Source: Thermoflavimicrobium daqui
Lineage (GTDB): Bacteria > Bacillota > Bacilli > Thermoactinomycetales > Thermoactinomycetaceae
Length of the DNA: 64,000 nt
Reading direction: 5' to 3'
NCBI RefSeq assembly: GCF_003313465.1
Contig: NZ_KZ845672.1
Span: 1 to 64,000 of the forward strand
Each line of letters begins with the position of its first letter. Within the stretch, counting starts at the first letter, position 1. Under the pieces are notes generated by a model. It worked only from the letters and a program-made list of their open reading frames with translations, had not been told where the DNA came from and searched no databases. Made by a program: the position numbers and the translations under genes. Shown piece after piece: positions 59,563 through 64,000 of this stretch.

Positions 59563-60147
59563 TTATAAAGCGATTCCTCTCCAAAAAATATCCCATCTTT
59601 TTTGTAACTTTTGGGCCACATGTTCTCGTCCATAGTAAAATCCATGTATTTCGGTTCCATCTAATAAAGAATAGTAAGCATAGAGTAAGTCCTCCATATT
59701 TTCAGGGCGAATCAACTTTTGCTTAATCCCTTCTGCAAAGACTTTGATAAGTATACGAGATAGTTGTTGTTCAACTTCTAAAAATTGAGCCCGAATTCGC
59801 TCCTTCAAAAAAGATGGTGGGAAGATGGTCGTACGTTTTAAGAACTCTAACTTTTCCTCATCATATCCTTCCAGTTCACAACTAAAAAAATATAAAATCC
59901 GATATAACTTTTCTTCAACAGAGTTTTGTTTCATTTCATCAACAATCTTTTCAATCCAGTGAACGTGTTCAACTAATACTTCTCTATATACAGTGAGAAA
60001 TAAGTCTTCTTTACTGCGAAAATGTGCATAGATCGAAGGCTTTTTAATACCAACTTCACTCGCTATTTTCGAAAGTGATGCTCCTTCATAACCCGATTTA
60101 CTAAACTGTTTTAAAGCAGCTTCCTTTATTTTCTGAGCAGTCATCAT
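59563..60147 (-). CDS. TetR/AcrR family regulator
   Basis: This 194 aa protein has the TetR helix-turn-helix (residues about 5-50): ALKQFSKSGYEGASLSKIASEVGIKKPSIYAHFRSKEDLF. The ligand domain is distinct. It lies 93 nt downstream of sugE in the same direction, after a weak terminator, and probably controls it. ATG 60147 or 60144 follow AGGAG. Confidence 0.9.
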   Translation of the reverse strand: MMTAQKIKEAALKQFSKSGYEGASLSKIASEVGIKKPSIYAHFRSKEDLFLTVYREVLVEHVHWIEKIVDEMKQNSVEEKLYRILYFFSCELEGYDEEKLEFLKRTTIFPPSFLKERIRAQFLEVEQQLSRILIKVFAEGIKQKLIRPENMEDLLYAYYSLLDGTEIHGFYYGREHVAQKLQKRWDIFWRGIAL

Positions 60148-60192
60148 TACATCTCCTAACCTTTTTCATTGTCCACGTAGATTACATATCAA

Positions 60193-60219
60193 ACAAGAAA
60201 AGTGTCCTTGACGGACACT
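60193..60219 (-). terminator. Intercistronic hairpin after sugE
   Basis: On the complement, AGTGTCC-GTCAA-GGACACT is followed by UUUUCUUG. It could lower tetR expression relative to sugE. Confidence 0.6.
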
Positions 60220-60240
60220 ATATATAAACCACTTCATTTT

Positions 60241-60564
60241 TCAGGCAGAGGTTTCTGTAAACTTAAGTCCAAGAATACCAGCCACAATCAGCAAGATAAA
60301 GAGAATCCGCATTACGTTGGTCGGCTCTTTTAAAAAGATCATTCCAAATAATACGGTTCCCACTGCTCCAATTCCTGTCCAGATAGCGTAGGCGGTTCCA
60401 ATCGGTAATGTTTTTAAGGAATAAGATAAAAGTCCAAAACTAATCACCATACAAACCACAGTAAAAATAGATGGTACTAAGCGTGAAAACCCTTCCGTAT
60501 ATTTAAGCCCAATAGCCCATGCCGTTTCAAATAAACCTGCAATAACCAAAAATATCCAACTCAT
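60241..60564 (-). CDS. sugE: SMR exporter SugE/Gdx type
   Basis: This 107 aa four-helix small multidrug resistance protein has the catalytic Glu in [17 protein letters not shown] (E13) and the [17 protein letters not shown] loop of the SugE/Gdx branch, which exports guanidinium. Only one SMR gene is present, as for homodimeric Gdx. No guanidine riboswitch is seen upstream; a TetR operator-like palindrome is found instead. Confidence 0.92.
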
Positions 60565-60969: not shown

Positions 60970-62418
60970 TTACAAATTATTCACAGGTAGGGATAAATTT
61001 AATCGGTATTTCCCAGCAATCCGAACGAGTTGTTGTGTAAACTTCTCGCCAAGATCCGGTCGAACCATTCGAATATAGTTTACATAGCCTTTGATATATT
61101 CCCAAAAATGAGGATGATTACTACGATTTTCTTTTTCTAACCCATTCTTCTCTACATTATGGAGTAGTGCCCGAAAAGCTTTTAGCTCTTTACGACTCAA
61201 ATTAGGCTTTTCATTTACCACAATCCCCGTAACTCGCTGTCTGCGTGAGGCCCGTAAAATTCGCGTTTTCGCTTCATTTATCATGAATCCTTCACTACTT
61301 ACAATATCACGGATTTTTTTTAACAAGAGTCCAATTCGGCTCATAGAAGCTTCTTTACAGGAGAAAGTTAAATCATCCGCATATCTTGTATAATAAAACC
61401 CATGTGTATCAGCCAAACGACTCAGTCGCTGGTCCAGACGGCGACAAATAATATTGGTAAGTGCGGGACTGGTACAAGCTCCTTGAGGAAGTTGCCGTTT
61501 TCCCATAGCAACATAATAGTATCGACCGTCAAACTCCACTTCTGAGCGCGGTGGCTCTGTACAAAGCAAACCAAATAAAGTACTAATGGCTTCACTATAA
61601 CCAAATGATTGAAATACTCCTCTTACCCGATAAAAATCGATGGTAGGGAAGAAGTCTTTTAGATCCATCTTGATCACTACAGCTTGTTGCAAATGTTGCT
61701 TGGCATTATCGACAGTGCTTCTTCCTTGTACAAAGCCATACGCTGCCGAATGAACCGGAATAGGATCCAAAAGATGCTCTTTTACCCATGCTTGAGCCTG
61801 ACGCAACTCTTTCTTTGGTGCAGAAATTTCTCGTACCCCACCGCTTTTCTTAGGAATCGTAAAGCGGGCATAATGACACAGTGTCGCTGTATCCCGATGA
61901 TACGTAAGCCATTTGAGACGGCTAAGAGGCATCTCCATCGCTTCAGCTAATTCCATTGCGCTCCGGATCAGAGGAAGCTGATGAGTGATTAATTTTTCCT
62001 CATCATAATGAATAGAGGTAAGACCAGCTGAATATCCTTCCCCAACATGTACAATATGTGTTGCCTGGTGCTCTTCCCATCTTTTTTTAGCCTCTTGGCG
62101 AGCAAGTTCGCGCTGTGCTTTTCGCTCTGCACGTTTTCTTTTACTCTCCTCAATCCTCTTCTTTCGCACTTCATTAATTTTCTCTTGAATATTGGGTAGC
62201 TTTTCACTTTCTTCTTTTAATCGTTGTAATTCTTTTTCAAGTTGCTGGCGTTCTCTATTTTCGATTGCGAGCTGTTCTTCTTCTTCAGGTGTTAAAGGCT
62301 CTTCGGACCAAAATCCCAATCGAATCATCTCTTTTTTAATGACCTCGGTCCGTCCTTCTTGTTGTAAGCGCTCTAACCACTCTTCCCGTGTGAGTGGATG
62401 ATTTTGTTCTTCTGCCAT
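60970..62418 (-). CDS. Retron-type reverse transcriptase with coiled-coil N-terminus
   Basis: This 482 aa RNA-directed DNA polymerase has about 125 N-terminal residues that are very rich in Glu, Lys, Arg and Gln and form a coiled coil (residues about 42-115). The RT domain follows: YARFTIPKKSGGVREISAP, IKMDLKDFFPTIDF (catalytic Asp), LPQGACTSPALTN, YTRYADDLTFS (YADD) and VTGIVVNEK, the VTG motif seen in retron RTs. C-terminal YIKGYVNYIRMV belongs to the thumb. ATG 62418 has GGGAGGGG 5 nt upstream, 20 nt after the SWIM gene stop. Confidence 0.88.
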   Translation of the reverse strand: MAEEQNHPLTREEWLERLQQEGRTEVIKKEMIRLGFWSEEPLTPEEEEQLAIENRERQQLEKELQRLKEESEKLPNIQEKINEVRKKRIEESKRKRAERKAQRELARQEAKKRWEEHQATHIVHVGEGYSAGLTSIHYDEEKLITHQLPLIRSAMELAEAMEMPLSRLKWLTYHRDTATLCHYARFTIPKKSGGVREISAPKKELRQAQAWVKEHLLDPIPVHSAAYGFVQGRSTVDNAKQHLQQAVVIKMDLKDFFPTIDFYRVRGVFQSFGYSEAISTLFGLLCTEPPRSEVEFDGRYYYVAMGKRQLPQGACTSPALTNIICRRLDQRLSRLADTHGFYYTRYADDLTFSCKEASMSRIGLLLKKIRDIVSSEGFMINEAKTRILRASRRQRVTGIVVNEKPNLSRKELKAFRALLHNVEKNGLEKENRSNHPHFWEYIKGYVNYIRMVRPDLGEKFTQQLVRIAGKYRLNLSLPVNNL

Positions 62419-62438
62419 GGCTTCCCCTCCCATCTAAT

Positions 62439-64000
62439 CTATTGTCTATGAGTTCGATCGAATAACGTAATCAGTGATAAAATATGCTCACAAGGACCTT
62501 GGGTTAAGCGATTTCTACGGAAGAAGAAACAGTTACAGTTTGCATTTTTGATTCGCCGATCTTCATCCAGCTCCACAGAAGGTGTAATCTGAATGGATTG
62601 TCCGTGTACTTCACCAGACAATGAAATTCCTTTCTCTATCGACTCTATCTTTTGTACAATCACTTTTTCCGTTTCAATAAGCTCCTTCGCTTTTTCTTCA
62701 CGTGGATTCGCATACATGAGCTGATCCATCGGTAATGGATCTTTTGTTAGCTCACGTAACCGATATTTTCCGATCTCCAAGTCAAACATGACTCGTCCAG
62801 CACTACATAGCTGTCTTAAAGCACCTTGTACCACTTCATCCGATAGCTTTGTCCACGACACTAACTCTCCTAGACTAGTTGTTTTCTTATGCTTAAGCTG
62901 ATCAAAAACCTGTGTACTCTGTTCAGGAGTTACCTCTTTACTCTGTCCAACCATCAGGTCAAAGTTACCCGCTGCTGCCCAATCATTCCGTGTCCAACCA
63001 GAAAGCCCAAGTGTAAAGCTTAATGCTCCCATATCTACTATATAGAAGCTAGGTAACCCCGTTCCGAGTAAATGCACCGTAATTTTATTCGCTAGAGGTA
63101 ACAAACGTTCAAGCAAGAAAAGTCTACGCCGACCCCATGTACGAATTTCTCTAGCTTCTGTTCCTTGATATATCGAGCCACTTAATACCAACTCTTCGCT
63201 CCATGGCTCCATTACCACTTTGACAGACTCACCTGGTTTCAGAATAAAACGAAGCGAACGTGGACCTTGCTTTTCTCGATGCTGCCTCAAAAATAGACAT
63301 AAATTATACAGATGAATTGGCTTCATCTCAAATGATACGGTTGGTAAATTCATGGCTGATTGTACCTGTAAGAAGCCACGTACCCAACTTTCAGGAACAT
63401 CAATTTTCTGCTCTTTATATACCTCATGCCCTGCTGTTGCTACTTCAAATCCTGAGGGATCAATTTGAAATTCAGTAGGGCGATAGGTGCGGATGCGTTT
63501 AAGTGCCCCTAATAAGGAATCAGAAAAATCAATATTGGTTGTACCATATTGGAATTCTTTTACATCACTAAATAAACGATCATGAACGGCTAGGCGACCA
63601 TAAGAAGATTCATCCAACGAAAACGCTTCAAAAAAGACTTGATCAGGTGCAACAGTTATCACAGGATCTAGTACATACCACCCAGGCTTATCATTTTCCC
63701 ACAACCAATTAAAATAACGGCTACGGGCTTTAAAAAAGTCCGCATTTCGTATGTCTCTTAACCTATCAAGCTCCCTGATACGTAACACAATTTCTTTCAT
63801 CCGATCAGCAACTTGCTGATGAGCTTCTAATACATCGGCTATATCCAATAAGTATTGTTCTTGAACCCATGCTTGATAAGCGCTATGATCTCGAGGTTTA
63901 TAGTTTAGATCAGAAACAACCACATCCCTGAGCGCAATCATTGCATCTCGATAGCGAATTGGATCAGCGATTTTCCCTCGAAAAAACGTAGGCTCACGAC
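62439..64000 (-). CDS. Winged-helix and SWIM zinc-finger protein (5' end beyond window)
   Basis: At least 519 residues are visible. The frame stays open to the window edge, and the part before the first ATG (63941) reads REPTFFRGKIADPIRYRDAM in one run with the rest, so the true start lies beyond 64000. Counting from that ATG, a winged helix spans about 351-398 (TSLGELVSWTKLSDEVVQGAL..GKYRL) and a SWIM zinc finger has C469-x-C471 and C484-x-H486. The remaining N-terminal 330 residues are unrecognised. It directly precedes the reverse transcriptase gene and matches the WH-SWIM partner of one retron class. Confidence 0.8.
   Translation of the reverse strand, partial: REPTFFRGKIADPIRYRDAMIALRDVVVSDLNYKPRDHSAYQAWVQEQYLLDIADVLEAHQQVADRMKEIVLRIRELDRLRDIRNADFFKARSRYFNWLWENDKPGWYVLDPVITVAPDQVFFEAFSLDESSYGRLAVHDRLFSDVKEFQYGTTNIDFSDSLLGALKRIRTYRPTEFQIDPSGFEVATAGHEVYKEQKIDVPESWVRGFLQVQSAMNLPTVSFEMKPIHLYNLCLFLRQHREKQGPRSLRFILKPGESVKVVMEPWSEELVLSGSIYQGTEAREIRTWGRRRLFLLERLLPLANKITVHLLGTGLPSFYIVDMGALSFTLGLSGWTRNDWAAAGNFDLMVGQSKEVTPEQSTQVFDQLKHKKTTSLGELVSWTKLSDEVVQGALRQLCSAGRVMFDLEIGKYRLRELTKDPLPMDQLMYANPREEKAKELIETEKVIVQKIESIEKGISLSGEVHGQSIQITPSVELDEDRRIKNANCNCFFFRRNRLTQGPCEHILSLITLFDRTHRQ

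Follow-up and report, generated by a model that had tools for sequence, protein, structure and literature searches.

Does the right edge of the window analysed here (64,000 nucleotides of Thermoflavimicrobium daqui, C10:1–64000 of a 110.6 kb contig) hold a retron of the kind used in defence, and where is the rest of it? An earlier note, made from the sequence alone, had placed there a probable type XIII retron, consisting of a reverse transcriptase (RT) and a protein with a winged helix and a SWIM zinc finger, and had proposed looking past position 64000 for a HEAT-like gene and an msr-msd RNA. The SWIM reading frame, with its stop codon at 62439, is still open where the window ends; since the contig runs beyond the window, the system could be completed. 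Both expected parts were found at 64109–67120 of the same contig, the HEAT gene upstream of the SWIM gene on the minus strand and the RNA upstream of the HEAT gene. The protein genes are as follows (coordinates on C10).

60970–62433, minus strand: retron RT, 487 aa from the first ATG, matching RT_XIII, with YADD, VTG and NAxxH motifs and a charged N-terminal extension
62439–64085, minus strand (the window holds 62439–64000): WH-SWIM protein, 548 aa, matching SWIM_XIII and Pfam SWIM
64109–66553, minus strand: HEAT/ARM protein, 814 aa, matching HEAT-ARM_XIII and WGR_XIII

The first ATG of the RT lies 5 nt from the SWIM stop codon; the second, at residue 6 and preceded by GGGAGGGG, lies 20 nt from it. 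The gap of 20 nt given previously holds therefore only if the second ATG is the start. NAxxH and VTG mark retron RTs. In an alignment of 16 relatives YADD (residues 351–354), T402 and G403 of VTG, and A244 and H247 of the NAxxH stretch were invariant, and V401 was almost invariant; the YADD and VTG motifs which had been noticed are thus conserved, and a charged stretch of about 125 residues is present at the N-terminus, as judged by eye. PADLOC scored the RT with RT_XIII at 597 bits (E 6.8e-180), the next-best model reaching 352 bits. Of the NCBIfam models, three for retrons gave 224–243 bits, each under its own cut-off, compared to 79 bits for a group II intron model and about 41 bits for the best Drt model. 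Retron models thus score highest, and by these scores a grouping with group II intron, DGR or Abi clades, which would have refuted the proposal, was not seen. The RT very likely belongs to retron type XIII, a judgement based on profile scores only and not on a tree.

The other two proteins matched type XIII models as well: SWIM_XIII with 685 bits (E 1.4e-206), and, for the HEAT protein, HEAT-ARM_XIII (E 7.2e-80) and WGR_XIII (E 9.8e-98). With all three proteins matching, the type XIII assignment of the earlier note held. The zinc finger is firm, Pfam SWIM being matched by 16 of 16 members; the winged helix is weak by Pfam (HTH_24, 6 of 16 members) and is seen in the structure model, which shows three helices and a hairpin at residues 387–443. 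The HEAT protein was modelled confidently (pLDDT 86) as a helical solenoid, and it was the fastest-changing of the three proteins in all five close pairs compared, for instance with 85% identity in the Kroppenstedtia pair versus 94–95% for the other two. The edge of the window holds most of a type XIII retron, and together with the parts beyond it the chromosomal operon is complete; the anti-phage role, which had been proposed before, remains inferred, as there is no phage assay.

Just downstream of the retron, at 59563–60564 of the window, a TetR-type regulator and a small multidrug-resistance-type transporter were recognized by eye. Upstream, a 692-aa protein is encoded at C10:69946–72024 (L005 11947–14025), which we take to be a DUF262-type restriction protein and a possible second defence gene.

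The SWIM_XIII model was searched across 42 genomes of the order and matched in 21, one of them (G035) showing only a weak zinc-finger match, which leaves 20 genomes carrying the gene; in the family of the window these are 15 of 23. The 20 genomes contain 21 operons. By tblastn on these loci, the order HEAT-SWIM-RT is kept in 20, and the contig of the exception ends inside SWIM; hence the SWIM gene is not a housekeeping gene found without the RT, as might have been objected. Thermoflavimicrobium dichotomicum has a SWIM protein with 80% identity to that of the window, and further relatives include Hazenella, Shimazuella, Laceyella, Kroppenstedtia and others. Among 398 genomes of the class, the eight matches outside the order were all weak (E 8e-5 or worse); distant relatives with 35–45% identity occur in Methylobacterium, myxobacteria and proteobacterial MAGs. 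The genes flanking the operon are common within genera, and also to Laceyella and G011, so the locus is stable there. No SWIM relative and no exact match to the msd-frame pattern (see below) was obtained from IMG/VR, and a plasmid collection yielded four SWIM records, of which one, from Methylobacterium, covered most of the protein; in these collections there is no sign of a phage or plasmid origin.

Some genomes deviate. G024 carries two separate type XIII operons (L029 and L035) with two tandem armed RNA genes each, and thus four different arms. The operon of Paenactinomyces guangxiensis (G012) carries the HEAT gene twice (L033 3803–8822). In G026 the match to the SWIM gene is split in two (L044 6434–8052); the gene is therefore probably frameshifted and the retron perhaps inactive.

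Upstream of the HEAT gene, two direct repeats were found, one of 151 nt (77% identity) and one of 48 nt (79%), and here lie two tandem RNA genes.

66906–67118, minus strand: armed first msr-msd copy, distal to HEAT, 213 nt, with the arm at 66954–67027 (sequence anatomy)
67140–67168, minus strand: promoter-like TTGACG-17-TATACT of the armed copy (sequence)
66612–66731, minus strand: arm-less second msr-msd copy, nearer to HEAT, 120 nt from a1 to a2 (sequence anatomy)

Both units possess a promoter-like TTGACG/TATACT at one end and a terminator-like hairpin at the other, and between these a1, a short msr hairpin and a2; in relatives, as judged by eye, the elements follow one another in the same way (a1, TAGC or CAGC, msr hairpin, msd, a2). 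TAGC and CAGC are given as priming sequences in PMC6868368, and what is expected of a retron RNA, namely a1/a2 ends and a priming G in TAGC or CAGC, is met in the sequences. A search of Rfam gave no retron RNA match for the units. The msd frame was 127–134 nt long in 23 units, from which a model (R1) was built; in 20 of 20 genomes R1 detected the frame upstream of the operon, in 24 units including one (G005) on which it was not trained. In Shimazuella soli the frame is about 3 kb away from HEAT, and Shimazuella shows by eye an apparent remnant of promoter and terminator in front of HEAT. Two armed RNA copies are present in three of 21 operons, those of Hazenella and both of G024. The consensus that RNAalifold derived from a MAFFT alignment was poor (6 pairs, none changed on both sides), because the arms misalign; R1 works therefore mainly by sequence. 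An unidentified repeat of about 50–80 nt lies between the two RNA genes of L035 (query 359–447) and recurs in other genomes, including that of the window (G037:C10:76343–76423, G000:C12:455–505 and G000:C23:15099–15149).

In the msd a long hairpin arm is set between two conserved parts, the base and the tip. A hairpin scan showed arms of 19–34 bp with at most one mismatch in 19 of 24 units; in the remaining five the arms were bulged or outside the scanned stretch. Folding gave long arms also for the units of S. alba, S. kribbensis and Paenactinomyces and for the first RNA copy in the first operon of G024. For counting pairs the hairpin register was set by hand, and single-sequence folds reproduce the hand-set arms for the Thermoactinomycetales units which were folded.

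In five pairs of sequences the arm had changed faster than the rest of the RNA: the tandem copies of Hazenella (18/62 positions differing in the arm versus 1/184 in the rest) and of G024 (18/63 versus 17/181), and the species pairs of Kroppenstedtia (30/62 versus 15/186), Thermoflavimicrobium (41/62 versus 37/184) and Methylobacterium (15/38 versus 13/171). Arm positions are paired, and per-position tests of difference overstate therefore their independence. Counted by base pairs, 9 of 25 were changed on both sides in the Hazenella tandem copies, 15 of 24 in the Kroppenstedtia orthologs and 5 of 17 in Methylobacterium, with no one-sided change in any and one unpaired in Methylobacterium; these counts cover three of the five pairs, G024 and Thermoflavimicrobium having been left out. 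Some close relatives, both in Thermoactinomycetales and in Methylobacterium, thus have arms in which the two strands have been replaced together. This rapid change is not universal, since the Laceyella arms are identical (0/62 versus 5/181 in the rest) and two of three Shimazuella comparisons are frame-like (13/62, 7/62 and 14/62 versus 28/183, 31/183 and 16/183, respectively), only the third being nominally different (p 0.007).

Several explanations for the arm should be considered. Gene conversion of the frames could possibly account for the tandem copies; it is insufficient for Kroppenstedtia and Methylobacterium, because those pairs are between species. Alternatively, the arm need only be a stem, which drifts without selection while template switching in palindromes (quasipalindrome correction) keeps it paired. 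The absence of one-sided changes in the three pairs counted fits such concerted copying, and the arms of Shimazuella and Laceyella, which change slowly or not at all, also speak for this reading. Against it, the rest of the RNA barely changes in Hazenella (1/184) and Kroppenstedtia (15/186), with 18/62 and 30/62 differences in the arms, and G-run motifs are common to the arms beyond shuffled expectation (GGGGT in 14 of 24, expected 5.9; GGGTRC in 10 of 24, expected 2.6). The 24 arms are partly related and not all independent, and the motifs are a hint only. We lean against this neutral reading without being able to dismiss it. A third possibility is that phages encode an antagonist of the retron which binds the arm, and that the arm changes in order to escape it, not to sense phages. 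The same variation of the arms and the fast evolution of HEAT would be in accordance with this; on the other hand, no phage factor is known from the data, and nothing separates escape from the reading of the arm as a bait. We consider it unlikely. The armed RNA of the window had no match in 50,697 phage records, and thus no phage partner was seen. The present data do not separate the bait, escape and neutral readings.

Pieces of msd were detected also outside the operons. In G024, 18 places were counted by BLAST at E 0.01 or better, and R1 found three more, one of them weak (E 9.9e-4); Shimazuella alba has two, and Seinonella, G011 and G001 have one each. G036, which is without a SWIM gene, contains a full-length msd (L108 3368–3496), with no msr seen in the preceding 140 nt, beside a sequence which we take to be RHS-like. 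Dropped before the count of 18 were self matches, the locus of operon 1, places with E >0.01 (including L134, L135, L136, L139 and L140) and G024:C1:2029963 (L137), which matches query 382–447 between the RNA copies, a part that also matches G037 and G000. L138 (E 0.0013) was rejected as an msd piece, since its match is to the window unit's promoter end and it is not supported by G001's own unit. At E 0.01, no msd pieces were found in the genome of the window outside its own locus, nor in G037, which belongs to the genus of G024 and lacks the SWIM gene.

The query contained the msr and the terminator too, and all 18 places in G024 lie within 97–252 of the 298-nt unit; five start at 97–109, ten end at 237–252 and the other three are internal. 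Both msr and terminator are absent from all of them, for which the chance is 1.5e-6 under uniform placement. The pieces are roughly 80–98% identical, and several have an arm sequence resembling the resident arms and not equal to them. A stretch which is continuous in S. kribbensis is broken in S. alba by a piece of about 58 nt; this extends from the arm to the boundary of msd and a2, its end coinciding with that boundary or lying no more than 4 nt away. This is the only empty-site comparison that worked: G024 flanks gave a single one-sided match in G037, and the G001 flank gave nothing across the insertion in G000 or G002. As a rival, the pieces could be decayed copies of RNA genes from ordinary DNA duplication rather than integrated reverse-transcribed DNA. 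In its favour, they are short and mutated, and for most of their flanks no check of an empty site was possible. Against it stand the lack of msr and terminator in 18 of 18 places, the end of the S. alba insertion at the msd/a2 boundary with a continuous S. kribbensis stretch, and the full-length msd of G036 without msr; decayed copies are thus very unlikely. Retro-integration of msDNA is the simplest reading and a likely one, inferred from genome sequences. Since the pieces end near the predicted ends of msDNA, they support, indirectly, real msDNA synthesis in relatives.

What might the SWIM protein contribute? The structure model suggested the following domains (all predicted).

Residues about 33–365: PCNA-like
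Residues 387–443: winged helix
Residues 504–539: SWIM

Over residues 33–365 the model resembled PCNA with Z 17.7 (220 residues aligned, rmsd 3.1). Foldseek gave PCNA at E 4e-7, and 50 of 50 rows inspected were PCNA or beta clamp, with moderate TM-scores (0.24–0.29 by query, about 0.5–0.6 by most PCNA targets) and 8–17% identity to PCNA. The confidence of the model is modest, with a mean pLDDT of 59 and ten-residue means of 63–93 over 251–360 and mostly below 60 before that. No PCNA match was found by sequence among the PDB sequences searched, nor did the Pfam rows inspected for SWIM members, 16 of them near and 10 far, include it. The clamp fold is a possible lead, predicted by one model and without support at the sequence level.

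The following mechanism is proposed. The distal msr-msd RNA would fold through its a1/a2 ends, and the RT would prime at the G of TAGC and reverse-transcribe the msd, yielding msDNA roughly 150 nt long, mostly one long hairpin with a conserved base and tip and a duplex arm of about 20–34 bp between them. While the genes and the RNA anatomy are observed, synthesis and length of the msDNA are inferred from that anatomy and from the insertions in relatives, without an msDNA experiment. Known retrons restrain a toxin through RT and msDNA (PMC12548924). By analogy, the resting complex may comprise RT, msDNA, the HEAT solenoid and the SWIM protein, whose predicted clamp-like body, winged helix and zinc finger would all be suited to binding duplex DNA. 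If a phage acts on the msDNA, or if the msDNA is lost, one or more toxic proteins may then be freed and the infected cell stopped; the protein which kills is not identified. Complex, trigger, killing and defence are all inferred, in the absence of phage or toxicity experiments. The arm would be the part exposed to phage factors and, under that pressure, would be replaced, always paired, while frame and genes stay; this exposure is a proposal, the replacement itself being observed in several lineages, as are the dispersed msd pieces. Taken as a whole, a complete type XIII retron with an msDNA-held toxin complex and a phage-exposed arm could as well fail as hold. A bolder version, which we think unlikely, would make the arm an exchangeable bait, held by a clamp of the PCNA kind to which a zinc finger is fused, where a swap of about 25 bp re-aims the same toxin machinery at new DNA-acting proteins of phages; one or two baits per operon and up to four per genome would then be counted, and the insertions would record past arms.

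Beyond the earlier note, the new results are the paired replacement of the arm, the dispersed msd pieces with an empty site and the clamp fold predicted by a model. Retron msDNA has been called a conserved template (PMC8867640); in contrast to such a fixed template, an arm which changes while remaining paired points to a possible meeting place of phage and retron, and gives a direct handle on what retrons sense. The insertions provide indirect, genome-only evidence of msDNA being produced in Bacillota and being able to enter their chromosomes. The clamp-like fold, if true, suggests how an otherwise uncharacterised accessory protein holds duplex msDNA. In the open-access literature searched, type XIII is named in PMC11953036, as a single PADLOC prediction in Variovorax, and no other mention was found; matches for retron and SWIM used "swim" for motility, and the best-ranked matches for retron and sliding clamp or PCNA contained none on the topic, as judged by title.

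Compared to known systems, the operons agree with the type XIII models of PADLOC-DB (RT_XIII, SWIM_XIII, HEAT-ARM_XIII, WGR_XIII) in all three proteins and in gene company; here the RNA lies upstream of HEAT, is sometimes in tandem and has a long variable arm, which published type XIII RNAs may have as well. PCNA sliding clamps may share with the SWIM protein the fold predicted over 220 residues by the model of modest confidence, whereas the latter is fused to a winged helix and SWIM, and ring formation is not established. Partial chromosomal copies of msDNA and duplicated msr-msd are on record, as here, from Nannocystis (Lampson and Rice 1997; Lampson 2002; cited in PMC6868368); those are myxobacterial, while the present pieces are tied to type XIII and include an empty orthologous site. 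Diversity-generating retroelements use template and variable repeats and adenine-directed change in a protein gene, whereas here the variation is in the RNA gene itself and is paired on both strands. Myxobacterial and proteobacterial type XIII relatives (L060–L077), with SWIM and RT about 34–43% identical, have an msr hairpin of the CGGTGTTTCGCCG type in the gap between SWIM and RT in 16 of 18 loci (none in L063 and L067); in those 16 this gap thus contains the RNA, whose msd, by eye, is short, is conserved at its tip and lacks a long arm. We take this group perhaps to include Retron-Mxa2 (Mx65), for which the GAGC priming sequence in PMC6868368 is the only support. The type XIII retrons of Methylobacterium fujisawaense and M. 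bullatum (L058 and L152; 45–46% SWIM identity) also have the RNA between SWIM and RT, unlike the present operons, and share with those of the Thermoactinomycetales the long arm and its paired replacement between both species.
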